Source: Sphingobium yanoikuyae
GTDB lineage: Bacteria; Pseudomonadota; Alphaproteobacteria; Sphingomonadales; Sphingomonadaceae
Direction of reading: 5' to 3'
Assembly (NCBI RefSeq): GCF_034424525.1
Contig: NZ_CP139979.1
Coordinates: 1,178,001-1,242,000, forward strand
Length of the DNA: 64,000 nt
The position numbers were made by a program, and so were the translations under genes. Below, piece after piece: positions 12,875-64,000 of this stretch. The stretch's first letter is position 1, and every line of letters begins with the position of its first letter. The notes beneath the pieces were generated by a model, which had not been told where the DNA came from, did not search any database, and saw only the letters and a program-made list of their open reading frames with translations.

Positions 12875-12976
12875 GATATCTCCTCTGAATGCCGCGCCGT
12901 TTGATGGGCGCGTACATGCGGGAGGGACGTCGCCGCCGGGCGGGTTCCGTCAGGAAAAATGCCGGTCGGCGTGATT

Positions 12977-48485: not shown

Positions 48486-48505
48486 CCTTTTCAGGAGATC
48501 CAATC

Positions 48506-49500: not shown

Positions 49501-49547
49501 GCGCAATACCATCTATGCGATTGTGTGTCGCATAGATGGTATTGCGC
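49501..49547. promoter_or_regulatory. TATGCGA-N7-TCGCATA operator within a 47-bp perfect palindrome, upstream of an SDR gene
   Basis: The core TATGCGA-TTGTGTG-TCGCATA lies at 49514-49534. Here the arms extend to 20 bases each (49501-49520 and 49528-49547) without a single mismatch, far more than at the other copies. It lies about 90 bp before the SDR start. Confidence 0.85.
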
Positions 49548-49624
49548 GCCGGAGCGACGTGCGAACCGGATATGGCGGCTGCACATCATGCGGCCAGGAG
49601 CCGCACCATGAGAGGATAATGAAA

Positions 49625-50437
49625 ATGGCAATACCCGACCTGTCTTCGCTGCCCCTGGCCAGCCTCTATTCGCTCGCCGGACGATCGGCGGTGGTGACTG
49701 GCGCGGCATGGGGGCTGGGCAAGGCCACGGCGCGTCGCCTGGCCGAAGCGGGGGCCTCTGTGCTGATTGCCGATATCGATGCTGAGGCGGCTGCGGCGAC
49801 TGCGGCGGAACTGGCAGAGACGTTTGGCGTGACCGTCCTCTCTGTGCGCATGGATGCAAGCGATCCGGCCGCCATTTCGGCAACGGCCGATCTGGCCGTC
49901 TCTTCGTTCGGCAAGATCGACATCTGGGTCAATAATGCGGGCATTCCCTCTTTCGTGCCCTTGCTCGATCTGGACGATGCGGCATTTGACGAGGTCATCG
50001 CGGTGAACCTGCGCGGAAGCTTCGTGGGCGCCAGGGAAGCGGCCCGCCGTATGATCGAGGCAGGCCAGGGCGGCGTGATCGTCAATGTCGCGTCGCTGGC
50101 GGGAGTCATGGGCATCTCGCAGGGCCAGGCAGCCTATTGCGCCTCCAAGCACGGCGTTGTCGGGCTGACCCGCCAGCTGTCGATCGAGCTGGCACCCGAG
50201 GGAATTCGCGTGCTTGGCGTCGCGCCAGGTTTCTCGCTCACGGAAAAGACCATGTTCCTGGCCGAACTCGACGACGAGGCGCTCAGCCAGATCCCAATTC
50301 CCGGCATCGGCGGCAGCCGCTTGGGACGCGTGGGGGTGTCCGATGACATTGCGCGGGCGATCCTGTTCTGCGCCTCGGACATGGCCCTGTTCATGACCGG
50401 AAGCACCTTGTTGCTGGATGGCGGTGTGGCGGCTTGA
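49625..50437 (+). CDS. short-chain dehydrogenase/reductase (SDR)
   Basis: 270 residues from ATG 49625 (MAIPDLSSLPLASLY), nine bases after GAGG; ATG 49619 is the alternative. Cofactor motif TGAAWGLGKATARRL, NNAG, catalytic Ser in VNVASLAG and YCASK. Preceded by a copy of the 21-bp operator, so it belongs to the island regulon and is expressed separately from the GntR operon. Probably a hydroxyl or keto dehydrogenase acting on the aglycone; inferred from context. Confidence 0.91.
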   Translation: MAIPDLSSLPLASLYSLAGRSAVVTGAAWGLGKATARRLAEAGASVLIADIDAEAAAATAAELAETFGVTVLSVRMDASDPAAISATADLAVSSFGKIDIWVNNAGIPSFVPLLDLDDAAFDEVIAVNLRGSFVGAREAARRMIEAGQGGVIVNVASLAGVMGISQGQAAYCASKHGVVGLTRQLSIELAPEGIRVLGVAPGFSLTEKTMFLAELDDEALSQIPIPGIGGSRLGRVGVSDDIARAILFCASDMALFMTGSTLLLDGGVAA

Positions 50438-50460
50438 AGCCCGAGCCGGGCGAACAGGTA

Positions 50461-50495
50461 CTGGCCTTCGGGCCGGGGCCTGCCCGGCCGGCCAG
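50461..50495. terminator. nested hairpin between convergent genes
   Basis: CTGGCC/GGCCAG encloses GGCCGGG-GCCTG-CCCGGCC. No T-tract on either strand, so termination would need Rho or be inefficient. Confidence 0.45.
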
Positions 50496-50543
50496 GATAG
50501 ACGCAGGCAATCTGTGCCTGATGGCAGCCCGGCCCACCTCAGG

Positions 50544-51611
50544 TCAGGCCAGATGGGCGATCACCTGCGGTAATTCGGCCGTCGTGAGAATGCCGGCACG
50601 CGCCGCCACGATCGCCTCGATCGCGTTTACGGGGCGATGGGCGGTGAGATTGGGCAGAATATCTGCCCGTTGTTCAGGCGCGATCGGAAAGCGTATGCTG
50701 ACCTCGAGCGGCGTGTCACCATCGACGGTGATATGCCAGCCATCGGCACGGATCGGCCAGGGCGGATCCAGCGCGTCGGTCACGAACCAGGTGCATCGGA
50801 AGCCCATGACCGGATTCCCGTCGCGATAGCCCGTCGTGACCATTCTCTGTCCGGCGACGGAACCTGCCGGAATGACGGAGCGGTGAAGAGGAGTGGCCTC
50901 CCGGGCCAGGGCGATCTCGCTGACCGTTTCGAAATGATCGATCGCAATGCCAAGCCCCTGGCCCAGGGCTGCGAGCGAGTGGCCGAACACTTGGTCCCGT
51001 TCGGGAAAAGTGCGTGCCTGGAAATCCTGCGGGGCCGCGCCAAAGCCCATGATGTCGACCAGCATCTCCTCCGAGCAGCCGTCGATGCAGTTGGCAAATT
51101 CCTCGATCATGAGCAGATCAAGCCGGCGGCTCAAGGAAAGCAGAACAAGGGGCAGCGCCTCGGTGATGAAGCCAGGGCTGCTGCCGCTGCTGTGGATGCT
51201 GCTGTTTCCCCTGGCGCACGCCGCTTCGAGGCGTTGGCGAAGAGGGGCGGGGATAGTGTCCGGATTGAAGAATTCGGCGCGCGTGGAGGAAATGCTGATG
51301 CCATTTTCAAGCAGTGTGCAGACATCGTCCCAGTCGGTACTCTCGGGCATGTAGAGCACGCAGTCAGGCTTGAGCGCCAATATGGCCGACAGGTCGGAAG
51401 TGGCGAGAACGCCCGTGTCGGGGCGACCGCATAGCGCGCCCGCGTCACGCCCCTCCTTTTCGGCCGCATAGACCTTCACTCCGACCAGATCGAGGCGGGG
51501 ATGATCGAGGACAGCACGCATGGCGGCCTTGCCGACCGTCCCGCTCGCCCACTGCACGACACGGATGGGCTTAATTGCATCTTGCCCGTCTCTGGCCGCG
51601 ATGTCGCGCAT
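50544..51611 (-). CDS. DapB-like / amine-dehydrogenase-like NAD(P) oxidoreductase
   Basis: 355 residues from ATG 51611 with GGAGAGGGAC upstream. The N-terminal Rossmann segment is RVVQWASGTVGKAAMRAVLDH. The C-terminal domain resembles dihydrodipicolinate reductase-like enzymes of the 2,4-diaminopentanoate dehydrogenase group, known as NAD(P)-dependent amine dehydrogenases. It is last in the P450-SDR-oxidoreductase operon. If it is truly an amine dehydrogenase, the substrate of this region may contain nitrogen. Other DapB-like oxidoreductases act on carbonyls, so this is open. Confidence 0.82.
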   Translation of the reverse strand: MRDIAARDGQDAIKPIRVVQWASGTVGKAAMRAVLDHPRLDLVGVKVYAAEKEGRDAGALCGRPDTGVLATSDLSAILALKPDCVLYMPESTDWDDVCTLLENGISISSTRAEFFNPDTIPAPLRQRLEAACARGNSSIHSSGSSPGFITEALPLVLLSLSRRLDLLMIEEFANCIDGCSEEMLVDIMGFGAAPQDFQARTFPERDQVFGHSLAALGQGLGIAIDHFETVSEIALAREATPLHRSVIPAGSVAGQRMVTTGYRDGNPVMGFRCTWFVTDALDPPWPIRADGWHITVDGDTPLEVSIRFPIAPEQRADILPNLTAHRPVNAIEAIVAARAGILTTAELPQVIAHLA

Positions 51612-51658
51612 GTCCCTCTCCTCGACCTATGCTAACTGAGAATGGCCGGACGGGCCGG

Positions 51659-52411
51659 TCAGCCGATGAACATGCCGCCATTGACCGCCAGCACCTGCCC
51701 GGTCACATAGCTGGCTCCATCCGACGCCAGATATTCACAGGCCGCTGCGATATCGTCGGGGGTTCCCGGACGCGGGATCGGAATATGCTGGGCGATGATC
51801 TCGAGCGGCGGAAATGTTCCAGCAGCAATGCCCTGATCGGCCATGGGCGTTGCGACCACCGAGGGAGGTATGGTGTTGACCGTGATGCCGTGGGCCGCGA
51901 GTTCCCGGGCAAGCGACCGGGTGAGACCGATGACCCCGCTCTTGGCCGCAGCATAATGGGCCCGGTCCATGGCGCCCGACTGGGCGGCCTGGGACGAGAT
52001 GGTTATGATCCGGCCCCAGCCGGCCTGCCGCATGTCCGGCAGCGCGGCCTGGACAGTGTGGAAGACGCCGGTCAGGTTGATGTCGATCATCCGCTGCCAG
52101 ATGTCGACCGTGATATCATCAAAGCCTATGCTTTCGGAGATGCCGGCATTGGCGACGACGATGGCGATGGGGCCAAGCTCCGCGCGGACCTTCGCATAGG
52201 CATCATCGATGCTGGTGCGATCGGCGACGTTGACGACGAGGGGCAATATGATGGCACCTTGGCCACGCAGGACGGCGGCTTCCTTTTCAAGAAGCGCCTC
52301 CTGAACGTCGAGCATGGCGACGCGGTGCCCTTGTTGCACGAACCGCTTCACGATTCCGAGACCTATGCCCGATGCGCCGCCCGTGACGACGACAACCTTG
52401 CTGCTGCTCAT
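51659..52411 (-). CDS. short-chain dehydrogenase/reductase (SDR)
   Basis: 250 residues, GGGAGAGGAAG before the ATG. Cofactor motif TGGASGIGLGIVKRF, catalytic Ser in ITISSQAAQSG and YAAAK catalytic pair. Middle gene of the P450 operon (43 bp from the P450 stop, 47 bp to the next gene). It probably oxidises the alcohol made by the P450; this is inferred. Confidence 0.92.
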   Translation of the reverse strand: MSSSKVVVVTGGASGIGLGIVKRFVQQGHRVAMLDVQEALLEKEAAVLRGQGAIILPLVVNVADRTSIDDAYAKVRAELGPIAIVVANAGISESIGFDDITVDIWQRMIDINLTGVFHTVQAALPDMRQAGWGRIITISSQAAQSGAMDRAHYAAAKSGVIGLTRSLARELAAHGITVNTIPPSVVATPMADQGIAAGTFPPLEIIAQHIPIPRPGTPDDIAAACEYLASDGASYVTGQVLAVNGGMFIG

Positions 52412-52454
52412 CTTCCTCTCCCTTGAACCGGATTATTCTATTGTGCTGCAGCCC

Positions 52455-54005
52455 TCAGATCGCCGCGAGATCTGCGTCGACGGCATCAAGCGCGGCGTCG
52501 CTGAACTGGCCCGGGGCAAATTTCTGAACCGAACGCAGCGTCATCCCCTTGGCCATGGCGAGCCTTTTGTCCTGGCTCATGCCCGGAAAATGGCGGTCGA
52601 GCACCGCGAGCGTCATGGGGTTGGCGAGCAGTTCGCCGATCCTGGTCTTGGCCGTCGAATAGTCGCTCGCCGTCTTTTCCTGGGGCTTGACGGCTGGTTC
52701 GGCTGACGCAGGCGTCAGATCGACTCCGGCCGCCGGGCTGAGCTTAACATGCAGTTCCGACAGGCCGCGAATGATGAAGCTGGGCTCGAAGTCGAGGACG
52801 CGATCGCCACGCGGGCCATGGACCGCTTCATCGAGGTCGATATTGGAGGTATAGGCCAGCATCTTTTCAAGGATGATCCGCACTTCGACGCGCGCGAGCG
52901 GGGCACCCGCGCAGACATGCTTGCCCCGGCCAAAGGCGACATGCTCCTTGATTTTGGGCCGATCGAGTTCGAACGCGCCCGGATTGTCCCAGCGTGCCGG
53001 GTCGCGGTTGGCAGCGGCGAGTGCAACCAGGATCCTGGTGCCGGCCGGGACGGGGAGGTCACCGATCTTCGTGTCCCGGCGCGCAAGGCGCGCGGTCTGC
53101 TTGGTCGATCCTTCCAGGCGCAGCACTTCCTCCAGCAACTGGGGAATGAGCGAGGGGTCTGCCCGCAGGCGATCTTGGAGCCCAGGCTGATCGGTGATGA
53201 AGCGGATCGAATTTCCCAGCAGCTTGGCGCTGGTGTCCTGGCCCGCTCCAAAGAGGAACGTCGCCATCTTCACCAGCTCGATCGTGTCCGGCACGCTGCC
53301 GTCTGGGAAGGTGGAACGAGCAAATTCGGTGAGAATGTCGTCCTGCGGATTGTCCCGGCGGTCCTGGATGTAATTGGCGAAATAGCCGCCCATGACGACC
53401 AAGGGATGATCCGGCGAGCTATAGTCATTCTCCCCCGTGTCGAGGCTCCCGGGCGGAGGTGCGGCCTCGATCACGTCCATGAACATCTGGCGGTCGGCAG
53501 CAGGCACTCCCAGCAGATCGGCGATCACCAGGGTCACGAACGGGGTCGCGACCTCCTTGATCAGTTCGCACCCGCCCTTGGCGGTGATCGTCCGGGCGAT
53601 TTCGTCCGAATAGGACTGGATAAAGGCTTCATTGGCCTTGAGACGCGAGGGTGTGAACAGCTTGTTGAGCAGCGAGCGCATCCGGGTGTGCAGGTCATCG
53701 TCATAATTGACGAGCAGGTCTCCGCCCAAGATCTGGTCGCGATGCGCCTCGATCTGCGCCGTGATGTCCGACCCCTGCGGCTCGAAGGGAAGCGGCGCGG
53801 AGGCGCCCTGGAGACCGATGATCGCGGAGAAATCGGCATTGTTCTTGAGCACTTCGAGCGCTTCGTCAAAGCCGGTGACGATCAGATAATCCCTGCCGGG
53901 CGGCTGGTAGACCGGGCCATGGGCGCGCACCGCCTCGAAAAAGGAATAAGGATCCTTGAGGATCTCGTGATCGGTAAAATAGTCGCGCTCTTCCAGTGCC
54001 GTCAT
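52455..54005 (-). CDS. cytochrome P450 with novel C-terminal domain
   Basis: 516 residues. The P450 signatures are complete: I-helix AGQDT (254-258), ExxR (Glu293-Arg296) and the heme loop FGRGKHVCAG with Cys365. The P450 fold ends near residue 430; residues 454-516 form an extra domain found again in the exported protein at 56175. Class I bacterial P450s need a ferredoxin; one is encoded 1.3 kb away, but no ferredoxin reductase is visible. First gene of a three-gene operon with the TATGCGA-type operator 36 bp upstream. The likely substrate is a bulky aglycone; inference. Confidence 0.95.
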   Translation of the reverse strand: MTALEERDYFTDHEILKDPYSFFEAVRAHGPVYQPPGRDYLIVTGFDEALEVLKNNADFSAIIGLQGASAPLPFEPQGSDITAQIEAHRDQILGGDLLVNYDDDLHTRMRSLLNKLFTPSRLKANEAFIQSYSDEIARTITAKGGCELIKEVATPFVTLVIADLLGVPAADRQMFMDVIEAAPPPGSLDTGENDYSSPDHPLVVMGGYFANYIQDRRDNPQDDILTEFARSTFPDGSVPDTIELVKMATFLFGAGQDTSAKLLGNSIRFITDQPGLQDRLRADPSLIPQLLEEVLRLEGSTKQTARLARRDTKIGDLPVPAGTRILVALAAANRDPARWDNPGAFELDRPKIKEHVAFGRGKHVCAGAPLARVEVRIILEKMLAYTSNIDLDEAVHGPRGDRVLDFEPSFIIRGLSELHVKLSPAAGVDLTPASAEPAVKPQEKTASDYSTAKTRIGELLANPMTLAVLDRHFPGMSQDKRLAMAKGMTLRSVQKFAPGQFSDAALDAVDADLAAI

Positions 54006-54040
54006 GTGCCCACTCCCTGTTTCGCCCTTGGTGGCGAATC

Positions 54041-54061
54041 TATGCGATTGATTGTCGCATA
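54041..54061. promoter_or_regulatory. TATGCGA-N7-TCGCATA operator upstream of the P450 operon
   Basis: TATGCGA-TTGATTG-TCGCATA, exact arms, 36 bp before the P450 start codon. Confidence 0.85.
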
Positions 54062-54173
54062 AGTTCGTCCGTCCGTGTCGTCAAGCTGCTCACATCCACG
54101 CGTTTCCGCACCTCGTTCATTATGGCCGCCTTGGAATGGCCCGCAATAGAAGCCGGATTGACGAGATGATATC

Positions 54174-54194
54174 TATGCGATTATGAGTCGCATA
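54174..54194. promoter_or_regulatory. TATGCGA-N7-TCGCATA operator in the P450/TetR intergenic region
   Basis: TATGCGA-TTATGAG-TCGCATA, exact arms. No plus-strand gene follows, but a strong plus-strand terminator lies 100 bp downstream. Confidence 0.85.
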
Positions 54195-54331
54195 GATTGT
54201 CGATTGGCTGGTTTCCCGGTTTGGAAATGGCCGGTCTTCCGCCTCCAAGGTCATGGATTTTGCGTGCAGCCTTCCCAAAAGTGCGCGCAGGACTGCGGCG
54301 CGCCCATTCTCTCCGGGCGCGCCGTTTTTTT
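54195..54331 (+). ncRNA. candidate small RNA between operator and terminator
   Basis: A stretch of about 100 bp downstream of the operator at 54174 that ends in a strong terminator on the plus strand. The only ORF (from 54183) runs straight through the terminator, so it is not a real gene. A short regulated RNA is possible; a relic of a deleted gene would look the same. Confidence 0.35.
54296..54331 (+). terminator. strong intrinsic terminator
   Basis: CGGCGCGCCC pairs perfectly with GGGCGCGCCG around a nine-base loop, followed by seven T. It works on the plus strand only. Confidence 0.9.
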
Positions 54332-54391
54332 ATCCATCGAGGTTAGGCCACGGGCAGGGCGATCGAAAAAAAGCTGCTTGGACCTTATCTC

Positions 54392-55048
54392 TCAGCGCGG
54401 CCCGGGCCGGGGTGCGATAACCGCGGACTCCACAAGTTCGTCCAGCATCACCGCTATCTGGTCAGAGGAATAGGCGGCTTCCTCCTGCGTCAGCCACCAG
54501 GAGAGTGTCTCGACGATGAGTGTCGTGCTGCAGATGATCGAAAGCTCCTGAGGCAGCCAACTGCGATACTCCTGAAACAGGCCTGCCAGATTCTTGGAGA
54601 GGCGCATAAGTTCCTCGCGCATGGCGCCACCCGCACCGCCCGTCAGCAATGCTCTCCACAAACCGCGGTGAGAATGCACATAGTCGCACAAGGCGCGATA
54701 GCCTTCCAATCTGTGGCCAGCAGGGAGGGAGAAGGCGACGAGGCGATCGATCTCTTCCTTGGCGACATGATCGAGCATGCCTTCCTTGTCGTTGTGATGG
54801 CGAAAGAATGTCGCATAATGGACATGGGCGGTTTCGCAGATTTCCCGGATCGTGATTTGGTCGAATGATTTGACCGCCAGCAACTGCAGCAGAGCCTGGC
54901 GCAACGCCTGAGCGCTGCGTACCTGTCGCGGATCGGTGCGGCTTGACGAGCGCCTGCCTTGAAAACTATGCGACTCTGTGTCGCTTAGTTTGCGCGATCG
55001 TGAGTCGCTTGCCGCGGGGCTTTCCTGAAGGGTCTTCTTGCCTGCCAC
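54392..55048 (-). CDS. TetR-family transcriptional regulator
   Basis: 218 residues from GTG 55048 (AGKKTLQESPAASD follows), with AGGAGG about eight bases upstream; the longer open frame up to 55504 overlaps the ferredoxin gene. The helix-turn-helix is near residues 65-100 (FDQITIREICETAHVHYATFFRHHNDKEGML). It has an N-terminal extension of about 40 residues, and its DNA carries two copies of the operator motif. It is the best candidate for the repressor that binds TATGCGA-N7-TCGCATA, because it lies central to the sites. This assignment is inferred. Confidence 0.87.
   Translation of the reverse strand: MAGKKTLQESPAASDSRSRKLSDTESHSFQGRRSSSRTDPRQVRSAQALRQALLQLLAVKSFDQITIREICETAHVHYATFFRHHNDKEGMLDHVAKEEIDRLVAFSLPAGHRLEGYRALCDYVHSHRGLWRALLTGGAGGAMREELMRLSKNLAGLFQEYRSWLPQELSIICSTTLIVETLSWWLTQEEAAYSSDQIAVMLDELVESAVIAPRPGPR
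54967..55011. promoter_or_regulatory. two degenerate operator copies inside the tetR start region
   Basis: TATGCGA-CTCTGTG-TCGCTTA (54967-54987) and TGCGCGA-TCGTGAG-TCGCTTG (54991-55011), 24 bp apart. They lie 40-80 bp inside the coding sequence, which suggests autoregulation by roadblock. Confidence 0.65.
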
Positions 55049-55261
55049 GAAACTGCCTCCTGCATCCGACGATCTTTTTTGAAGGAACAGTTCTGCCCGT
55101 CCGTCAATCAAAAAGATGAGGGAGCCTCGTAAGAGGGGTGTTGAAGCAATGCCAGCCTGAAATGAGGCTCCGCAGCAGGGCCCTGCTCGGTGACATCGGG
55201 AATGCAGGCGGATGGAGCCAGGCGTGAAATGCGAAACAAACTTGTGAAAGGAAGAGGGGAA

Positions 55262-55579
55262 ATGCCTGAGATTCTGGTTACGGATCGTAGCGGCGTGCAG
55301 CAGGCCGTCGGGGCAGAGGTGGACCGCAGCGTCATGGAAATCGTGCGCGATGCCGGGTTCGACGATATGGTGGCCCTGTGCGGCGGTTGCTGTGCCTGTG
55401 CGACATGTCATGTCTATGTCGACCCGGAATTTGTCGATCGCATGCCTCCGATCAGTGAGGATGAAAGCGATCTGCTCGATACGTCGCAGCATCGGACGGA
55501 GCACTCGCGCCTGGCCTGTCAGGTACAGTTCACCGCTGCGCTCGAAGGCTTGCGGATCACCATCGCACCTGAGGATTGA
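55262..55579 (+). CDS. [2Fe-2S] ferredoxin
   Basis: 105 residues from ATG 55262 (MPEILVTDRSG), with GAAGAGGGGA upstream. Cysteine pattern C-x5-C-x2-C in ALCGGCCACATCHVYV with the fourth in RLACQVQ, as in adrenodoxin/putidaredoxin-type ferredoxins. It should pass electrons to the P450 encoded 1.3 kb away. It has its own promoter region and is divergent from the TetR gene. No reductase gene is seen nearby. Confidence 0.95.
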   Translation: MPEILVTDRSGVQQAVGAEVDRSVMEIVRDAGFDDMVALCGGCCACATCHVYVDPEFVDRMPPISEDESDLLDTSQHRTEHSRLACQVQFTAALEGLRITIAPED

Positions 55580-55596
55580 GCTTTTCGTAAAGGCGG

Positions 55597-55626
55597 CAGG
55601 CGGACTAACGAGAGGAGATCCGCCTG
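55597..55626. terminator. possible terminator between ferredoxin and MarR genes
   Basis: CAGGCGGA/TCCGCCTG, perfect eight-base arms with a 14-base loop, in the gap of the convergent pair. No T-tract. Confidence 0.35.
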
Positions 55627-55673
55627 TCGACCGGATTCCACGACGCCTGGACTGCAGGACATGGGGGCGATCA

Positions 55674-56126
55674 TCACTGTGGTGGTTCGCGCCTTATGTC
55701 CTGCAGCATCTTTATGCACAGGCGTATCTCTTGCGGGCTGTAACGAGCCCATCTTTCCTGGATCATCCCTGCCATCGCAAGGCGCAGATGCGTGCAGATT
55801 TCCTGCCCCTGCGCCGACAGGGTCAGTTCCGTGCGGCGCTGGTCGCGCGGCGCCTTGCGCATCACCAGCAGGCCGGCCTTTTCCAGGCGAACCAGTTCTG
55901 CCGTCACCAGGCTGCGCCCGATCTGGAGGGTGGCGGCAATATCGAGCGGGTGCAACGTGCCACTCGATATCATGAGCAGGATCCAGCTGCCGCGCGGGCC
56001 CAGATCATGGCGCTCGTTAATGTCGTGGGTCAGCGCTCGCAGGGGGCGAGAGGCGAAGGCGAGGCCTTCATAGATCAGCCCGATTTCTTCCCACGCGAGC
56101 GCCATCTTTTCGGGAGGTGACGTCAT
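55674..56126 (-). CDS. MarR-family transcriptional regulator
   Basis: 150 residues. The winged helix is at about 50-110 (LHPLDIAATLQIGRSLVTAELVRLEKAGLLVMRKAPRDQRRTELTLSAQG), flanked by dimerisation helices. The wing has the DxRRTEL pattern. It follows the small exported protein gene by 48 bp on the same strand. The palindrome at 56575-56595 upstream of both has the classic MarR-operator form, so it probably represses its own operon. Its inducer is unknown. Confidence 0.9.
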   Translation of the reverse strand: MTSPPEKMALAWEEIGLIYEGLAFASRPLRALTHDINERHDLGPRGSWILLMISSGTLHPLDIAATLQIGRSLVTAELVRLEKAGLLVMRKAPRDQRRTELTLSAQGQEICTHLRLAMAGMIQERWARYSPQEIRLCIKMLQDIRREPPQ

Positions 56127-56174
56127 CGTCCCATCATCACGGGGCGATGATCCGATGGCAACCCCGGCCGCCTC

Positions 56175-56495
56175 TCATTTGGGAGTGGGCAATTTGGCCA
56201 GGTCCAGCTGGATCGCCGCCAATGCCTTGTCCGTCACCATGTCGGGCGCATATTGCTGTACGGCCTTGAGGGTCATGCCGCGCGCCATGTCGATCTGGGC
56301 ATTGGCCGAGAAGCCGGGAAGATGCTTGTCGACAACGGCCTTGGCCGCCGCATCGTCGAGCAGCGTGCCGATGTCGGTGGTATCGACATTGTAGGCAGAA
56401 GCGGGCGAGGAGGAAGTTGCGGGCTGGGCATGGGCCGGAGACAGCGGCGCTGTTCCTGCAAGGGCCATGCTCATGGCGATGACGATCGATTTCAT
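56175..56495 (-). CDS. small exported protein with the domain also fused to the P450
   Basis: 106 residues. Signal peptide MKSIVIAMSMALAGTAPLSPAHAQ, AAAGGAAC before the ATG. Residues 40-102 align without gaps to P450 residues 454-516, with 29 of 63 identical; conserved points are IGxLL, DxHxPG, MAxGMTL, VQxxAP and DxALxA. A helical mini-domain of this type (I know similar tails on some sphingomonad hydrolases) has no assigned function. It is upstream of the MarR gene and follows the GH39 gene. Confidence 0.85.
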   Translation of the reverse strand: MKSIVIAMSMALAGTAPLSPAHAQPATSSSPASAYNVDTTDIGTLLDDAAAKAVVDKHLPGFSANAQIDMARGMTLKAVQQYAPDMVTDKALAAIQLDLAKLPTPK

Positions 56496-56574
56496 GCTGT
56501 GTTCCTTTCAATGAGGGCTGTGCCTCGTTCCTCTCGATCAAAGGCTATGACCGCCCAGCAAGGCTTGCAAGAAA

Positions 56575-56595
56575 ATAATTCAACTTTTGAATTAT
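56575..56595. promoter_or_regulatory. MarR-type operator
   Basis: ATAATTCAA-CTT-TTGAATTAT, a perfect inverted repeat with nine-base arms in AT-rich promoter sequence, 80 bp before the small exported protein gene. The AATTCAA/TTGAATT half-sites are typical for MarR proteins. Confidence 0.75.
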
Positions 56596-56636
56596 ATGTC
56601 GCGGCGATTTCTACGCGCCCAAATTTAGATCGGTGC

Positions 56637-58175
56637 TCAGCCCTGCAATTCGAGCAGGGCGACCCCTTCCGGAGGCAGGGAGAGGGTCAGCCTGCCCTGC
56701 CGATCAAGGCGCATTTTTTGCGCTGGTGCGATATCGGCCCGCTCCCGCAGCGTGTCGATTTGCTGGCGGCTGGGATATTGTGGCGAGCCCATTTCGCGCC
56801 AGGTTGGCATCGGCGATCCGCGCTCCTGGTCGACATAGCGGACCGATACGCTTTGTCCCGGACGGGCGCCGGCGATATCCACAAGAAGCGATTTTGCCTC
56901 GCCGCGGACGCTGCGGCTGTGGCTGAGGCCTGGAATGCCCGAGGGCTGCGTCACATCCGCAAGGTTCCAGACCAGTGCCGCGATCATGCCGTCTTCGCGC
57001 CGGGAAGCCAGCACGGGGCCGTCCGCTTCGAGGCGTTCAGGACCCAGGGCGTTGAGGAGCTTATAGGTGTTGAAGGATGGCTTGGCTATTCCGGCGCTGA
57101 TCATTCCCCAGCCGCTGTCACCCTCCTTAAGGATATAGTCGGCAATGCCCAGTTCCTCATATTCGCAGCTCATCACCCAAGGGGACATGGCTTGGCAATA
57201 GGGAAGGCTTTCCTTGATGACATGGGTTATCATGGCCGGGCTGTCGGAGGACCATTCGGTGATCCAGAGCGGCTTGCCCGCAAAGGGACTGGCATCGATC
57301 TGCCCACGCGCCTGGCGGATCGCGCGCGGAATGACGTCATTCTGCGAAGAGCGCGCCGTGCCCTTGCCGAACAGCTTGTCCTGGGAGTCGCCAGCATAGA
57401 CATGGGTGGTGAAGAAATCGACCGGGGTGTTGGAGGTCGCGCAATAGCTGGCAAAGTCGGCAATCCATTCGACCGAGGCCGTCGATGGGCCACCGACCTG
57501 GATCTGGCTGTCGATCGACTTGATCGCGAGCGCCGTCACCCGGTAGAATTCGAAATATTGTTCCTTGGTGCCGGTCCAGAAGACGCTGAGATTGGGTTCG
57601 TTCCAGACCTCGAAGGGCCATTGGCGCACTTCGGCAAGGCCATAGCGCGCGACCAGATGGGTGACGAAGGCCTTGATGAAGTCGGCCCATGCGTCATTCG
57701 CCTTGGGTGGCGTGATGATGCCGCCATAGAAGAAGAAGCTGGTCGTTCCTGCAGCCAGGCCCTTTGGCATGAAGGAGAGTTCTACAAAGGGCTTCACATT
57801 GTTGGCGAGAAGCCCGTCATAGACCTGATCCACGCGCTGAAAATTCGGCGTTACCTTGCCGCGACTGAGGATGGTCGGCGTCATGACCGCCATCTCATCG
57901 GCAAAGATGCCATGGAAACGTACGCGCTGCGTACCCGCCTCGTTGGTCCAGCGTCGCAGGTCATTACGCCAAGTTTCGCGCAGCGTGATCGCGGCGCGAT
58001 CGGAGCCCACGCACTCTTTCCAGATATGGGGGAGGGGGCCGGTCTTGTGACGGATGTCAATGCGCACGGGAACGAGATTATCCTGTGCCATTACCGCAGG
58101 CGCAACGGCGGCGCCAAGGGCTGCAATGGATCCGCCGCCAAGGATCGCTCTGCGGCTCAGCCCATCTTCGTTCAT
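56637..58175 (-). CDS. GH39-family glycoside hydrolase (beta-xylosidase-like)
   Basis: 512 residues. N-terminal Tat-like signal with LSRRAILGGGSIAALG shows export. The barrel has the acid/base Glu193 (FEVWNEPNLSVFW) and nucleophile Glu307 (LWITEWSSDS); RVRFHGIF near the N-terminus is the usual substrate-side segment. AGGAGAGAGAC precedes the ATG. GH39 enzymes mostly remove xylose; other sugars are known in the family. It follows the GH2 gene and receptor on the same strand and may trim sugars of a glycoside. Confidence 0.9.
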   Translation of the reverse strand: MNEDGLSRRAILGGGSIAALGAAVAPAVMAQDNLVPVRIDIRHKTGPLPHIWKECVGSDRAAITLRETWRNDLRRWTNEAGTQRVRFHGIFADEMAVMTPTILSRGKVTPNFQRVDQVYDGLLANNVKPFVELSFMPKGLAAGTTSFFFYGGIITPPKANDAWADFIKAFVTHLVARYGLAEVRQWPFEVWNEPNLSVFWTGTKEQYFEFYRVTALAIKSIDSQIQVGGPSTASVEWIADFASYCATSNTPVDFFTTHVYAGDSQDKLFGKGTARSSQNDVIPRAIRQARGQIDASPFAGKPLWITEWSSDSPAMITHVIKESLPYCQAMSPWVMSCEYEELGIADYILKEGDSGWGMISAGIAKPSFNTYKLLNALGPERLEADGPVLASRREDGMIAALVWNLADVTQPSGIPGLSHSRSVRGEAKSLLVDIAGARPGQSVSVRYVDQERGSPMPTWREMGSPQYPSRQQIDTLRERADIAPAQKMRLDRQGRLTLSLPPEGVALLELQG

Positions 58176-58226
58176 GTCTCTCTCCTGATATCATTCGTCA
58201 TGAAGGCAAGCGCAGTGCCGCCGATG

Positions 58227-60899
58227 TCAACGCGGCGTGACCGCAATCGCCGCTACCACGGCGCGACCCTGGTTGCCGGCAAAGTCGAGCTGCAGCATGC
58301 CGTCCTTCACGACCGCGTCGAAGGATTTTGCAAGGCCGCGCATGGGGCCGCCGGCCTCATGCGCCACATCGAAGGGCGAGAGCGCCTCTCTGCCATTTGC
58401 CCTGACCGTCATGAGCACCGGCTCGCTTAGCGACTTGCGCGGCTCGAAACTGTAGATCGTGACCGTCCAGCGGCCATTGGGGACAGGAATTCTGTAGCTG
58501 AAATTCTCGCCCTCGCGCCAATAGTCATAGAGGCCGGGAATATCGGTCGCGACTGAGCGCGGCGCCATCATGCGCTGTCCGGCAAAGCCGCCCATATTTA
58601 GCACTGCCGCGATCCCGCCCGTCACGAAGTCATCGGACCCATATCTGTGTCCGGCAATGGTCGCGCTGCCCATATCGCCTGCGTTGACGTAGATGCCTTT
58701 GGCCGGATCAGGGCCGTCCAGCGTCATTGCGTCAGTGAGCGGCATGCCCTTGAGGCTGGCGCTCGCCGTGATCTGGTTGGGGCCAGGCTGCAGGCCGATG
58801 CCAGGCCAGAGACATATCCCCCCCGGGCACGGCACTGAACCCTGAGCGCGGCCGTTGAGGATGAGATCGGCGCTTGCCGCATTGGTATAGGCCTTGATCG
58901 TCACGACCCGGTAGGCCCGTTCCACATAGCGCTTGCCGGTGAGATGGAGCATGGGCTTGGAGGACCATTGCGCCTGATAATAATAGTAGGCGTCCTTGCG
59001 CGTGCGGCGATCGGCCGTAACCAGCCCCTTGTTGTTGAGGTCGATGGAATCGCCCTCGCGGCGCAGGTCGCTCGCAAAATCGAAAAGGTTCCACACCCAG
59101 CTGGCAAAGACGAAGGGACGTTCCTGGATCGCTGGCCAGTTCTGCTCATGATACCAGGCCTGATATTCTTCGGGATGGGGCGTTCCGGTGAAGTTGAGGA
59201 ACGCGTCGGCGATATTGTCGGAATGCTGGGAGACTGCGCCGCCTGCTCCATATTCGGAAAGCGATAGCGGCAGGGCCGGATGCTTGGCGTGGAAATGATC
59301 AAGCTGTGCACCCAGCTGCGCGCGTGCCTTGAGAGGCTGGGGATAATACCAGCCATAATAGCGATTATAGCCAATGAGATCGGTCGTGCCGGCGAGCTTT
59401 TCTCCCGCCGTCTTGACGAGGGTGAGATCCTCGCAGCAATCGGCGAAGATGGTCGGGCGATAGGGATCTTCCTGCTTGGCGATGGCATTCATCCGCTCGA
59501 GCAGAGCCAGAGGCCGCATCATGGCCTTGCCCACGGCAAAGCCCTTGGCTGAATCCACCTCATTGCCCACCGACCACATCATGATCGAGGGGTGGTTGTA
59601 ATTCTGGCGGATGAGCTCGCGCAGCTGCTGTTCGGCATTTGCCCAGGTCTCGGGGCTGCCTTCACCGCCCGTGATGCTCGGCGAGGTGACATAGGGCAAC
59701 TCGGCCCATGTCACCATGCCGGCCCGGTCGGCCTCGTCGCTCCATTCATCGGCCTGCTGATAATGGGCCTGGCGAATGCTGTTCGCGCCCATCTCCCTTG
59801 CTATGGCCATGTCCTGTGCATGATCCTTCGGTGTCAGCGCCCAGCCGACATCGGGGCGATCCTGATGGCGCGAGACGCCATGCAGGGCTAGATGGGCGCC
59901 GTTGAGAAAGAAGCCCTTGTCGGCATCGACGCGGAAGCTGCGGACGCCGAGCGGTTGGGATACGCTGTCAAGGATCTGCCTGCCATCATGCAGATCCGAG
60001 CGGATCCGATAGAGATAGGGGTCTGCTGTGCCGTTCCACAGATGCGGGGAGGGCAAGTCGATCGCGATCTGCTGCTCGCTCTGTCCGTGTGGCAGGTCGA
60101 TCCGGCGATCAGCCTCTGCCACCACTTGCCCTGACGCGTCGATGATGCGGGTTTTCCATTGCAGGGCGCGATGGGGACGATCCTGATTGCGCAGGCGGGC
60201 AAGGATCGCGATCCGGGCGGAAGCGGAGCCGACCGACATGGTGCGCGCATAGAGGCCTGGTCCGCCATAGTCGAGTGGATCGAAACTGGTGGCCGGCAGG
60301 GACAGCAGGGATACGGCGCGGTAGATGCCGCCATGGACGAAGAAATCGCCGGCCAGTGGCAGGATTTGTGCCGTGGCACTGCCATCTACCGGCTTGGAAT
60401 TGTCGGCCCGAACGGCGATGACATTGTCTTCACCGGGCTTCCAGTGATCACTGACATCGATCCGGAAGCGGGCGAACGCGCCCTTATGGGTCCCGACATG
60501 GACACCGTTGACCCAGACGTCGGCAATCTTGCTGACAGCGCCGAAGTCGAGATAGAAGCGACGGCGTGCTTCTGCGCGCGGCGCGTGCAGTTTCAGCCTG
60601 TACCAGCCGATGCCCTGCCGATTGTCCGTCCGGGGCGAGCGCGTGTCGCCATAGCTCCCCAACCGGTTCCAGCTATGCGGGAGTTGCACCTTCTCCCATT
60701 GGCTGTCTGCAAAGTCCGATGCGGCAGGGGCGTCGTCTGTTTCGCCGAAAGAAAAGCGCCATCCGCTATCGAGCGCGTGCGTTTCTCGGCCACCGCTCTC
60801 CTGGTGCGCGGCCTGTCCAGCACCTGCGACTTTCGCGGTGGCCGGCGGCGATACTGCCCCTGCCAGACCGGCAAGAAGAAGGGTGGACGCGATGATCAT
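58227..60899 (-). CDS. GH2-family glycoside hydrolase (beta-galactosidase or beta-glucuronidase type)
   Basis: 890 residues with a signal peptide (to about 22). The jelly-roll (GWYRLKLHAPRAEARRRFYLDFGAVSKIADVWVNG), Ig-like and TIM-barrel domains are present; acid/base Glu447 (WSVGNEVDS), nucleophile Glu549 (LSEYGAGG). HGVSRHQDRPDVGWAL is the typical GH2 galactosidase block. C-terminal Ig-like domains end with a malectin-like region. AAGAGG precedes the ATG. Which sugar is cut cannot be told, but the substrate is probably the same glycoside as for GH39 and GH106. Confidence 0.92.
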   Translation of the reverse strand: MIIASTLLLAGLAGAVSPPATAKVAGAGQAAHQESGGRETHALDSGWRFSFGETDDAPAASDFADSQWEKVQLPHSWNRLGSYGDTRSPRTDNRQGIGWYRLKLHAPRAEARRRFYLDFGAVSKIADVWVNGVHVGTHKGAFARFRIDVSDHWKPGEDNVIAVRADNSKPVDGSATAQILPLAGDFFVHGGIYRAVSLLSLPATSFDPLDYGGPGLYARTMSVGSASARIAILARLRNQDRPHRALQWKTRIIDASGQVVAEADRRIDLPHGQSEQQIAIDLPSPHLWNGTADPYLYRIRSDLHDGRQILDSVSQPLGVRSFRVDADKGFFLNGAHLALHGVSRHQDRPDVGWALTPKDHAQDMAIAREMGANSIRQAHYQQADEWSDEADRAGMVTWAELPYVTSPSITGGEGSPETWANAEQQLRELIRQNYNHPSIMMWSVGNEVDSAKGFAVGKAMMRPLALLERMNAIAKQEDPYRPTIFADCCEDLTLVKTAGEKLAGTTDLIGYNRYYGWYYPQPLKARAQLGAQLDHFHAKHPALPLSLSEYGAGGAVSQHSDNIADAFLNFTGTPHPEEYQAWYHEQNWPAIQERPFVFASWVWNLFDFASDLRREGDSIDLNNKGLVTADRRTRKDAYYYYQAQWSSKPMLHLTGKRYVERAYRVVTIKAYTNAASADLILNGRAQGSVPCPGGICLWPGIGLQPGPNQITASASLKGMPLTDAMTLDGPDPAKGIYVNAGDMGSATIAGHRYGSDDFVTGGIAAVLNMGGFAGQRMMAPRSVATDIPGLYDYWREGENFSYRIPVPNGRWTVTIYSFEPRKSLSEPVLMTVRANGREALSPFDVAHEAGGPMRGLAKSFDAVVKDGMLQLDFAGNQGRAVVAAIAVTPR

Positions 60900-60916
60900 G
60901 TAATGGCCTCTTGTAA

Positions 60917-60960
60917 AATGCCTGCATGCACCGCCTCTTCAGTCAGCCCATGCAGGCATT
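60917..60960 (-). terminator. hairpin between receptor and GH2 genes
   Basis: AATGCCTGCATG and CATGCAGGCATT, perfect 12-base arms around a 20-base loop, with a short TTT on the minus strand. It could reduce transcription into GH2 and GH39 below the receptor level. Confidence 0.6.
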
Positions 60961-60973
60961 ATTGTCCGGAATT

Positions 60974-63406
60974 CTAGCGGGTACCGAAGGCGAAGCGGAA
61001 ATTGACGCCGAACTCCCTGGGGGGTGTCAGGCTGCCGCCGGTGTAGGTGCTGGTTGCCGATGCCCCGGTGGGGCCGGTGAAGACCGGTGCGCCGTTGCTG
61101 AAGCCGCCGAACCCCAATTGCTGATAGGAGGTGAAATAGGGATTGGTCCGCGAAATCACCTTCGTCGTGTCGAAGAGATTCTTGGCGAAGAAGGAGAGTT
61201 CCCAGTTTCCGTCCGTACCACGGACGCCGGCGTAGAGATTGAGAAGGCCATAGTCGGACACATTGTCGAATGGATTGGTGGGGTCGCCCTGCGACTTGCC
61301 ATTGTAGGAGAAGATGCCGCGCACATAGCTGTCGGTCGCGCGCGATATCGGGATGCGATACTCGCCCTGGAGCGATGCGCTGAACGGCGGCAGGAAGGCC
61401 GACCGCTGATTGCTGCGGCAGGTCGCCAGATTGTCGGCGCCGACGGCCGCCTGCAGGTCGGCAAGACTGGGGGTGCCCGTTGTTACATCGGGAATGCCGT
61501 CGCCATTTATGTCATTGCAGGCGACCACGCCATTCTTGATCTTGCCGAGCGAATAGCTGCCATTGACGCCGATATTGAGGCGGCTGCCAACGGCAAGGTT
61601 GAAATCGGCCTCCACGCCGTTGACCTCAACCGGCACGGGCGAGACGAAATTGAACTGACCGACCTGTTGACTGACCCCCGTGACCGTTCCTGATGCATTG
61701 GTGACCGCAACGGTGTTGACGTAGAAGATCCCGGTTGGCGAGCGGTAAGGAAAATTCTTGAATTTTTGGTGATAGGCCGTGACGTTGAACTGCGCCCGCC
61801 CGCCCAGCAATGTGCTCTTGAAGCCAAGCTCGTAGGATTTGGAGCTTTCCGGCGGTACGTTGACGAAGGATTTTTCGAGCGCGGATGGCGCCAGGTTGAA
61901 ATCGCCGATAGCGGTCAGGCCCGGGCGCCAGGAACTGCCGGTGCTGGCATAGACCATGAAGTCGGGCGAGAAGTTGTGCTTTACCGAAGCATTATAGATG
62001 AGCTTGCCTTCGTCGCGATCCTGCGCATCGATGACCCGGCCGCCAACGCTGAAATTGCCGACAAAGCTGTAGTCGATCCGCCGCAGGCCGCCCGAGATTT
62101 CCGTGTCCTTCCCGATATGGGCGGTAAGGTTGCCGAAGAAGGACTGTTCATGCTCGTTGGTCGGCCGGGCGATCGGCGTATTGACGATCTGGGCGACCCC
62201 GCCGCCAAAGAGCAGGGGCAGGCGGACGACCGTGGGTGTCGTAAGATTGGTTCGAGACGCATTCTTATAGTCGAAGAAGCCGATCACATAGTCGAGAAAA
62301 TCGAAGACCCGTTCTTCATTCTGCAAACGGACTTCATGCGAGGTGGCCTTGGCCCGGGTGTTGGTCACCTGGTCGACGATCTGGCCAGGGAAAAATATCG
62401 CGTCGTCGAAATTGTCCGCAGAGTAGAGCTTCTGGGTATAATGCTGCCCCTGATAGATCAGCTTCTGCCCCATTTGGGCGGCTTCCGCACGCCAATTATA
62501 GATTTCGAAACGTTGATGGATCGGACGCGGCCGTTCCTGGAGGGAGAGCCGATCCTCGGCCGTGATCAGGACAGGGCTGGGGGCCGCATCGGGGTTGGCT
62601 TCGCTGAAGGAAATGGCCTGATCGTAGCTTTGCGCGTTGCGCTTGAGATATTGATAGGTGCCCTCGAAGCTGAGCCAGTCGAGCGGCTTGGCAATTGCGC
62701 TCAGACGGCCGCTGGTAGTTGTCGAACGCGGATCGGGATTGTTTGCGGCGCGAACCCGGTCTCCCTCATTCTCGTCCCATACCCCGGCCGCGCGCAAAGC
62801 CAATATGCCTTCGATCACGGGAATATTGACGGCCCCTTTCGCGTTCATCGTCCCGATATCGTTCGCAGTGAGATCGACATAGGCGCCATAGCCGTAAAGG
62901 TCGGGCTTCTTCGCGCTCACGGTGATCGAACCCGATGGCGAAGCACGCCCACGCAAGGTGCCCTGTGGGCCACGCTGCACCTCGATCTGGCCGATATCAT
63001 ACATCTGCTGGATGATGGCGCCTGCGGTGATGGGCGCGTCATTAAAATAAAATTCTACGGTCGGATTATTGCCGCTCGCGTTGACGTCGAAATTGATGCC
63101 GCGCAGCTTTGCATTGGCGCCGATGCCATTGGCGTTGGAGGACAGTTCGAGACCCGGGACGAGCGCTTGGACGTCGTTGAAGCTGCGCAGGTTGAGCTTG
63201 TCGATCTGCGCGCTGGTGACCGCGTCGATCACGGCAGGGACGTCCTGGACATCCTCCTCCCGTCGCCGGGCCTGCACGATGATGTCGGTGATCGCCGAAG
63301 CGCCGGGGGCCGCCTGCTCCGCTGGCGCTGTCTGCGCGAGCAGGGGCGTTGCCATCAGCACGGCGCCCAAACTGACACCCCAATGAACGGCATGAAATGC
63401 TTTCAT
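60974..63406 (-). CDS. TonB-dependent receptor (island)
   Basis: 810 residues from ATG 63406 (MKAFHAVHWGVSLGAV), AGGAGGGGA upstream; the frame is open further up but without a start signal. Signal peptide ends at TPLLAQ, plug starts ITDIIVQARRREEDVQDVPAV with QRGPQGTLRGRASPSGSITV, barrel ends NFRFAFGTR. The type is frequent beside aromatic and terpenoid catabolic genes in sphingomonads. It probably imports the glycoside or aglycone. A TATGCGA-type operator lies about 90 bp upstream. Confidence 0.93.
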   Translation of the reverse strand: MKAFHAVHWGVSLGAVLMATPLLAQTAPAEQAAPGASAITDIIVQARRREEDVQDVPAVIDAVTSAQIDKLNLRSFNDVQALVPGLELSSNANGIGANAKLRGINFDVNASGNNPTVEFYFNDAPITAGAIIQQMYDIGQIEVQRGPQGTLRGRASPSGSITVSAKKPDLYGYGAYVDLTANDIGTMNAKGAVNIPVIEGILALRAAGVWDENEGDRVRAANNPDPRSTTTSGRLSAIAKPLDWLSFEGTYQYLKRNAQSYDQAISFSEANPDAAPSPVLITAEDRLSLQERPRPIHQRFEIYNWRAEAAQMGQKLIYQGQHYTQKLYSADNFDDAIFFPGQIVDQVTNTRAKATSHEVRLQNEERVFDFLDYVIGFFDYKNASRTNLTTPTVVRLPLLFGGGVAQIVNTPIARPTNEHEQSFFGNLTAHIGKDTEISGGLRRIDYSFVGNFSVGGRVIDAQDRDEGKLIYNASVKHNFSPDFMVYASTGSSWRPGLTAIGDFNLAPSALEKSFVNVPPESSKSYELGFKSTLLGGRAQFNVTAYHQKFKNFPYRSPTGIFYVNTVAVTNASGTVTGVSQQVGQFNFVSPVPVEVNGVEADFNLAVGSRLNIGVNGSYSLGKIKNGVVACNDINGDGIPDVTTGTPSLADLQAAVGADNLATCRSNQRSAFLPPFSASLQGEYRIPISRATDSYVRGIFSYNGKSQGDPTNPFDNVSDYGLLNLYAGVRGTDGNWELSFFAKNLFDTTKVISRTNPYFTSYQQLGFGGFSNGAPVFTGPTGASATSTYTGGSLTPPREFGVNFRFAFGTR

Positions 63407-63496
63407 GGAAAAATCCCCTCCTTTTGTCGACGGACTATCCCTGTCCGTTCCTGGTCGCCGCATATCCCGACTCAAGCTGCCGGGCCGATCTTGAAC

Positions 63497-63517
63497 TATG
63501 CGACATACAATCGCATA
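63497..63517. promoter_or_regulatory. TATGCGA-N7-TCGCATA operator upstream of the island receptor
   Basis: TATGCGA-CATACAA-TCGCATA, exact arms, 90 bp before the receptor start. Confidence 0.85.
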
Positions 63518-63661
63518 AGTGGGAGATGGCAGGCTTGTCAAGCAATGTCCCGGTGCATGCGCCGGAGCGGCAACCAAGCGCAGGAACCGCTGTTCGCAGG
63601 CGCTTGCATCTCGTAATATCGGCCCGTCAAACCATACTTGACCGGAGCAGATGCATCCATC

Positions 63662-63682
63662 TATGCGATAGATTGTCGCATA
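63662..63682. promoter_or_regulatory. TATGCGA-N7-TCGCATA operator upstream of the GH106 gene
   Basis: TATGCGA-TAGATTG-TCGCATA, exact arms, only 16 bp before the GH106 start codon, so it would cover the transcription start or ribosome site. Confidence 0.85.
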
Positions 63683-63698: not shown

Positions 63699-64000
63699 AT
63701 GTGGTTATTTGCGCCTGAAAAGAGCCGATTGCGGCACCGGTCGGTCGGGTTGGGCGCTCTTGCGATGGTGCTGGTCGGGCTCGGCACGACTGCCATGAAG
63801 GCGGAGCCTTCGGCGCTCGACACGCTGCGTGAAGGATTTGAAACGCCGCCGCCCGAGGCAAGGCCGCGCCTCTGGTGGCACTGGATGGGCGGGAATATCT
63901 CCGCCGAGGGCGCGCGGCTTGACCTGGAATGGATGCAGCGTATCGGTATTGGCGGCGTGCATGCCTTTTCAGGCGGCAAGCTGCCAACGCCGGCCGTGGT
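63699..64000 (+). CDS. GH106-like alpha-L-rhamnosidase, N-terminal fragment
   Basis: The window ends after ~100 codons. ATG 63699 has GGAGAGG upstream. A signal/anchor segment (GALAMVLVGLGTTAMKAE) is followed by the family opening PPPEARPRLWWHWMGGNISA and LDLEWMQRIGIGGVHAF, the start of GH106-type rhamnosidases. These remove alpha-L-rhamnose from plant polysaccharides, saponins or flavonoids. It is divergent from the receptor and has its own TATGCGA-type operator. Confidence 0.85.
   Translation, partial: MWLFAPEKSRLRHRSVGLGALAMVLVGLGTTAMKAEPSALDTLREGFETPPPEARPRLWWHWMGGNISAEGARLDLEWMQRIGIGGVHAFSGGKLPTPAV

Follow-up and report, generated by a model that had tools for sequence, protein, structure and literature searches.

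A putative promoter-embedded palindromic operator and a TetR-family protein as its probable binder in a gene island of Sphingobium yanoikuyae

We analysed a stretch of 64,000 nt from the soil bacterium Sphingobium yanoikuyae (contig NZ_CP139979.1, positions 1,178,001 to 1,242,000; hereafter the window, with positions counted from its first letter), in the last part of which a compact gene island (Table 1) is accompanied by repeated copies of a 21-bp palindrome, TATGCGA-N7-TCGCATA. The palindrome is a testable operator candidate for a set of genes which are probably co-regulated, namely an importer, three glycoside hydrolases (GH), a cytochrome P450 with its ferredoxin and dehydrogenases, whose target is probably a plant glycoside; in their middle lies tetR, a gene for a TetR-family protein. 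A sequence-only reading, made before any database search, had already named a short-chain dehydrogenase (SDR), the P450, a TonB-dependent receptor and a GH106 gene, and these names hold, the first three by domain search and the last by Pfam family PF17132.

Exact copies of the palindrome start at 49514, 54041, 54174, 63497 and 63662, as the sequence-only reading had claimed, and a motif scan of the whole genome (5,527,198 bp, 7 contigs) gave these five only, all inside 14.2 kb, where 14 kb had been proposed. The two degenerate copies proposed with them are of different quality: the one at 54967, inside tetR, has a single mismatch, and the one at 54991 has very degenerate outer arms and an intact core GCGA-N7-TCGC. 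At up to one mismatch the genome holds seven places, precisely the six of the island and one on contig C2, and the reversed pattern, used as a control, gave no match in the same genome at this stringency. In the window, ten matches were found at up to three mismatches against 2.94 expected, a number that none of 100 shuffles reached; the first 49 kb, said earlier to be free of the motif, contain three matches only, each with three mismatches. The whole-genome scan had been named beforehand as a refuting test, and it found the motif restricted to this gene set rather than spread over the chromosome, so that this objection falls. The 3-mismatch match at 54797, which the sequence-only reading had not claimed, was rejected as an operator, being an artefact of helix-turn-helix coding that is also present in tetR relatives without operators. 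Arms of 8 bp, that is TATGCGAY-N5-RTCGCATA, are present at 29 of 31 tabulated sites (a table compiled by hand, which excludes 54991 and two 2-mismatch sites of the related genome G062).

The operators appear to be embedded in promoters. We considered 33 sites, defined as motif matches of 0-2 mismatches in nine loci (the copy at 54991, loci L118 and L119, and plasmid pKN1, which is near-identical to the window, were not part of the set), and we counted TTGAC from either arm. At 25 of them the proximal arm has a TTGAC at a distance of 17-18 bp, which holds for 0.24% of random positions drawn from the same sequences, and all 25 point to a gene of the regulon or a homologue of one, or to the short transcript described below. 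In the own genome together with two related Sphingobium genomes, G068 and G081, the count is 16 of 18 sites. The proximal TATGCG falls where a -10 box is expected, and because of this spacing we place the operators over the -10 region of putative promoters, an arrangement that fits repression by covering the -10 box. The composite TTGAC-N19-TATGCGA-N7-TCGC occurs exactly at four places of the genome, all in the island; the P450 promoter, whose spacer is 17 bp, falls outside this pattern.

Some observations weigh against this placement. Eight of the 33 sites, including 54174 and position 12877 of G081 (the two exceptions among the 18), have no TTGAC at 17-18 bp; TATGCG agrees with TATAAT at 3 of 6 positions and is therefore a weak -10 match; a generic promoter scan of the tetR-P450 region (53900-55300) misses these promoters; and the composite at up to two mismatches has one further match beyond the island, and with the pattern reversed as a control there are three. 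At 54174 a TTGACG lies closer to the arm and 18 bp from a TATGAG within the operator spacer, which in our own reading would restore the -35/-10 distance. In the G068 and G081 counterparts of this site, TTGACG lies 18 and 17 bp from TATGCG, respectively.

Table 1. Genes, operator sites and small-RNA candidate of the island, in window positions. Operons and promoters are putative.
Feature	Positions	Strand	Remarks
Operator/promoter of SDR1, TTGACC-N18-TATGCG	49514..49534	+	Centre of perfect inverted repeat with 20-bp arms (49501-49547)
SDR1, short-chain dehydrogenase	49625..50437	+	Pfam adh_short_C2; upstream site conserved in G068 and G081
DapB/2,4-diaminopentanoate-dehydrogenase-like reductase, third gene of inferred P450 operon	50544..51611	-	Same strand, short gaps
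SDR2, second gene of inferred P450 operon	51659..52411	-	
Cytochrome P450	52455..54005	-	Nearest solved structure by sequence CYP150A6; extra C-terminal domain
Operator/promoter of P450 operon, TTGACG-N17-TATGCG	54041..54061	-	Motif scan, conservation, -35 spacing
Operator before short terminated transcript	54174..54194	+	Motif scan, conservation
Candidate small RNA	54194..54331	+	Start inferred; hairpin with CCUUCCC in loop; terminator stem at 54295-54324 followed by T run at 54325-54331
tetR, 218 aa, GTG start, TetR/AcrR-family repressor, proposed binder of all sites	54392..55048	-	PF00440, fold, co-occurrence
Operator/promoter inside tetR (codons 21-28), TTGACG-N18-TATGCG, towards ferredoxin gene	54967..54987	+	
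Degenerate tandem operator copy, tetR codons 13-20	54991..55011	none	Core GCGA-N7-TCGC
2Fe-2S ferredoxin, presumed P450 redox partner	55262..55579	+	Fer2; orthologues beside tetR in G068, G081 and G530
MarR-like protein, last gene of inferred receptor operon	55674..56126	-	Pfam MarR_2 23.1 bits, below cut-off 27; not found in G068
106-aa orphan protein related to P450 C-terminal domain	56175..56495	-	
GH39 glycoside hydrolase	56637..58175	-	
GH2 glycoside hydrolase with malectin domain	58227..60899	-	
TonB-dependent receptor, first gene of inferred receptor-GH2-GH39 operon	60974..63406	-	
Operator/promoter of receptor operon, TTGACA-N18-TATGCG	63497..63517	-	
Operator/promoter of GH106 gene, TTGACC-N18-TATGCG	63662..63682	+	
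GH106 gene start (alpha-L-rhamnosidase family)	63699..64000	+	PF17132, 870.6 bits; full gene to 67067, beyond the window

We then considered which protein binds these sites. Among 297 related genomes, seven contain exact copies: the own genome five, G068 and G081 four each, and G062, G159, G222 and G250 one each; the reversed control matched in two of the 297. Only the own genome, G068 and G081 have at least two exact sites (these genomes are related, so that site counts are not independent events, and a binomial value calculated for the 33 sites is no true probability). A TetR protein at least 58% identical to that of the window is encoded in only four of the 297, namely the own genome, G068 (72%), G081 (64%) and G062 (67% and 58%). 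The sites of G068 (four exact, two with one mismatch) and of G081 precede orthologues of SDR1, P450, ferredoxin, receptor and GH106, as located by tblastn (gene positions outside the window come from tblastn or a crude gene caller), and in the three genomes they stand as conserved blocks in intergenic DNA that aligns poorly. Besides the own genome, three genomes of the genus and plasmid pKN1 have sites at the orthologous genes. In other genera, recognisable sites accompany more distant TetR relatives in G423 (50% identity), G530 (51%), a Novosphingobium RL4 plasmid (48%), where the operator copies are more degenerate, and G124 (46%). Sites are found at TetR relatives of about 45-72% identity, not at every one of them, and relatives below about 45%, in whose loci 3.5-20 kb were scanned, are mostly without a site, with a few 3-mismatch matches, some of which are helix-turn-helix artefacts.

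The sequence-only reading had called the TetR protein the natural binder, and this co-occurrence among the 297 genomes supports it; we consider TetR as binder of the operator to be computationally well supported. Two facts do not go along with it: the G062 protein of 67% identity has no site nearby, degenerate sites lying instead beside the one of 58%, and three genomes have single exact sites and no close TetR. The latter (G159, G222 and G250) were discarded as regulon sites, since none has TTGAC beside it and the reversed control also matches two genomes of the 297. In G062, which is a Sphingobium, several relatives of the TetR protein were seen, together with three or more related P450 genes that have degenerate sites (loci L056-L058 and L059), and the closest TetR lies on another contig.

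The TetR protein carries the TetR_N helix-turn-helix domain (PF00440, 28 bits against a cut-off of 24), and its tetR start agrees with the annotated pKN1 gene. The predicted model has the all-helical TetR fold with nine helices (mean predicted local distance difference test 83.0, predicted template-modelling score 0.71). Its top matches in the Protein Data Bank include FadR, EthR and KstR, with query template-modelling scores of 0.47-0.61 and sequence identities of 12-20% among the best 50 matches, a likeness of fold. The closest named relative is 98% identical and comes from S. yanoikuyae. A scan of genome contigs with the TetR protein returned 11 loci, the best 45% identical, and viral contigs scanned with it gave no match; searches in the genera of G423 and G530 (5 and 10 genomes) gave nothing further. 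A conserved TTGACG-N17-CTTCAA (55079-55107), which lies before the tetR start on the minus strand, is in our reading likely the promoter of tetR itself.

MarR proteins too bind palindromes, and a MarR-like gene, although below the Pfam cut-off, belongs to the same island; it, or another regulator, could bind the sites while TetR responds to something else. Ten other loci were searched for the two regulators of the window and for no others, and a TetR relative was present in all ten, a MarR-like gene only in pKN1 and G081. The MarR homologue was not found in G068, despite its six sites, nor in the G423, G530, G124, G381, G062 and RL4 loci, and on this ground we rejected the MarR-like protein as binder. 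Moreover, the sites track the presence of TetR, and those within tetR keep a constant distance to the helix-turn-helix. We judge binding by the MarR-like protein or by another regulator very improbable.

It is instead highly probable, in our judgement from these comparisons, that the tetR product is a local repressor of the island, acting through the operator at -10 regions and released by an inducer. Precisely, a TetR dimer would bind TATGCGAY-N5-RTCGCATA where it overlaps the -10 of five putative mRNA promoters (those of SDR1; P450-SDR2-DapB; ferredoxin; receptor-GH2-GH39-small protein-MarR-like; and GH106) and probably of one small-RNA promoter, and since the palindrome covers the -10 region, bound TetR would block RNA polymerase. 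An inducer, probably a compound of the pathway, would release TetR, after which the functions for taking up a plant glycoside, removing its sugars and oxidising it would be switched on together. Some TetR-family proteins are activators, and the best NCBIfam match of this one, far below threshold, is the activator DhaS; but a dimer bound over the presumed -10 region should exclude polymerase, and a mainly activating role of TetR at these sites has in our view only a slight chance of being right.

The copy at 54967-54987 deserves separate consideration, as it lies within the coding region of the regulator. On the plus strand it has TTGACG 18 bp away and reads to the ferredoxin gene at 55262. An intragenic site is present in the own genome, G068, G081, G423, G530, G124, G691, pKN1 and the RL4 plasmid (there without TTGAC), and in G720 an exact site occupies the same place at the very 5' end of tetR. 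In G530 it leads into ferredoxin, P450 and SDR2; in both G691 and G720 the P450 is the gene it faces. The most fitting reading of the copy is as a promoter-operator serving the divergent ferredoxin/P450 side; this reading, and the apparent embedding of the operators in promoters, go beyond the sequence-only reading.

Read as protein, the intragenic operator gives the peptide LSDTxSH or LCDTxAH, which is found in 9 of 14 distinct tetR loci, where it precedes a fixed point of the helix-turn-helix region by 36-37 residues. Its absence from the other five (G381 and four more distant relatives) counts against our main reading of a TetR repressor. Among 103 database relatives with a tail of at least 25 residues (from the best 120 of 859), 46 contain LSDTxSH; the pattern is strict and the tails were cut automatically, the first 60 residues being taken where no end point was found, so that some of the 103 hold residues of the body. 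Such frequency could mean that LSDTxSH is kept for a function of the protein and that its likeness to the operator is a coincidence. This tail is, however, predicted to be disordered in the TetR of the window (block means 41-47), and the intragenic DNA matches the intergenic sites, with TTGAC at 18 bp except in RL4. Moreover, the serine codons are nearly fixed in the nine loci with the peptide: the second serine is TCG at eight (alanine GCG at one) and the first residue is AGC at six (cysteine TGC at three), whereas among all serine codons of seven of these loci TCG has a share of 0.26-0.46 and AGC one of 0.30-0.41. The histidine is CAT throughout, which says little, as CAT is the commoner histidine codon in six of the seven. 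In G720 a stop codon stands directly before the stretch, and the operator is exact nonetheless. Because of this stop and of the fixed serine codons (AGC at 6 of 6, TCG at 8 of 8), we conclude that the DNA rather than the peptide appears to be under selection at tetR codons 21-28, and selection on the peptide with a chance resemblance is most unlikely. A DNA control site would thus be written into the protein of its regulator, and the conserved peptide would predict an operator.

The tails of several database relatives correspond to two tandem operator copies, 8 codons apart, which fits the degenerate 54991 site; this copy has a counterpart in G068, and G081 is without one. As regards feedback, TetR at the intragenic promoter-operator would be expected to impede the transcription of tetR as well, and the ferredoxin transcript, being divergent, would run antisense across the tetR start.

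The sequence-only reading had also spoken of a short terminated transcript behind the site at 54174. A conserved candidate with a terminator is indeed there, and its transcription is presumed. To the right of the site, three Sphingobium genomes (own, G068 and G081) share the block CCTYCCCAARAGTRCGYGCA, which folds as a hairpin with a pyrimidine stretch in its loop and is followed by the terminator hairpin. In the terminator stem, pairs have changed on both sides across the three genomes; a clear T run follows in the window and in G068, a weak one in G081. In 94 genomes of the genus, with up to one mismatch allowed, the block was matched only at this locus of the three genomes and at one other place, in G062.

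We weighed whether the element at 54174-54331 is a mere insulating terminator between convergent transcripts, with no functional small RNA. Transcripts that run towards tetR from its 3' end would be halted by such a terminator; conservation is missing in the part that adjoins the operator; and no Rfam family came up to cut-off in the stretches scanned. The sub-threshold matches of the window to the alphaproteobacterial small RNAs CcsR1 (23.6 bits against a gathering cut-off of 65.3), ar14 (25.4 against 58.8), ar7 and mmgR did not recur in the counterparts from G068 and G081, nor in the near-identical pKN1, which was searched within a larger scan; in the window, ar14, CcsR1 and mmgR match on the same strand and at the same place as the element. 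On the other side, besides the terminator, a hairpin block with a CCUYCCC loop is conserved in three species and is nearly confined to this locus, a promoter-operator is aimed at the element in G068 and G081, and a sub-threshold match to the Xoo2 small RNA is present in both window and G068. The folds of the three sequences are each better than those of shuffled versions (z -3.2 for the window, -3.9 for G081 and -3.5 for G068; a G068 fragment ending before the terminator, with z 0.6, does no better than shuffles). In sum, 54194-54331 is likely a small RNA, and the insulating terminator keeps a real chance, clearly short of even. A short peptide encoded there was discarded, as no shared start codon was seen by eye in the three species.

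As a more speculative proposal, which we put forward tentatively and hold to be not far below an even chance, the first codons of a repressor gene would double as promoter-operator of the divergent repressed gene, imprinted as LSDTxSH in a disordered tail of the protein across several genera; repression, antisense transcription and roadblock would form one self-adjusting loop, and a co-repressed small RNA with the CCUYCCC loop would tune the translation of other mRNAs when the glycoside is present.

Known systems offer partial parallels. A literature search gave nothing on this motif or this TetR in titles or the openings of abstracts, most subscription journals lying outside its coverage. EdcR of Caenibius tardaugens, in the same bacterial order, is a TetR-like estrogen-dependent repressor of a catabolic cluster, described with palindromic operators overlapping the -10 box at several promoters and a less conserved copy at its own (PMC8700777). 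Its reported operator, TnnCnnTACnAnTnGTAnnGnnA, differs by eye from TATGCGAY-N5-RTCGCATA, and its targets are estrogen genes, unlike the glycoside hydrolases and receptor found here, where one operator lies within the repressor reading frame. The controller C.Kpn2I likewise has a binding site in its own coding region, where it acts as a roadblock (PMC6237814); it is a restriction-modification controller and not a TetR, and the site at 54967-54987, where TetR would bind, also resembles the promoter of a divergent gene. For the genus, PheR of Sphingobium SHPJ-2 is described as an IclR-family repressor (PMC13273656). A TetR-operator pair as described here might serve as a biosensor once its ligand is identified.

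As for the substrate, GH39 and GH106 enzymes are described as acting on plant saponin sugar chains in Sphingobium sp. RC1, and Sphingobium strains as degrading saponins near tomato roots (PMC10653915). That work concerns enzymes for steroid saponins and not regulation, the terms P450, TonB and TetR were not found in its main text, and we set it beside the window by description only. Because of the GH39/GH106 gene set and these saponin enzymes, a rhamnose-bearing plant glycoside, perhaps a saponin, is the likeliest substrate, at odds which we regard as about even. The likely role of the system is to keep the uptake, deglycosylation and oxidation of such a glycoside repressed until a ligand relieves it.

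Among the other genes, the closest NCBIfam models of GH2, all below cut-off, are beta-glucuronidase and beta-galactosidase. The 106-aa protein has no Pfam or NCBIfam match; it shares 45% identity over 69 residues with the C-terminal extension of the P450, and of the ten other mapped loci six have a relative. A neighbouring run at 44634-49291 encodes an aldehyde dehydrogenase, a carboxymuconolactone-decarboxylase-like protein and SDRs (names from pKN1) and contains no operator of the TATGCGA type; on pKN1 a GntR-family gene divergently adjoins its counterpart.

Plasmid pKN1, a 647-kb replicon of S. yanoikuyae CC4533, carries a 23.8-kb stretch that is 96.7% identical to the window; five exact sites and the one with a single mismatch keep their places there, and two of them differ in one spacer base. 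The island lies on a plasmid in that strain and on a 5.16-Mb contig here, which suggests that it has moved.

Finally, 4 of 32 sites (the set of 33 plus 54991, less the two 2-mismatch sites of G062) lie within much longer perfect palindromes, namely 49501-49547, positions 12567 and 16922 of locus L052 and 14799 of L056. Their arms are site-specific, with 11-16 extra bp per side, and an origin by repair or template switching is our guess. In G068, a perfect 52-bp palindrome was also seen at 148-199 of locus L085, with chance microRNA matches in Rfam.

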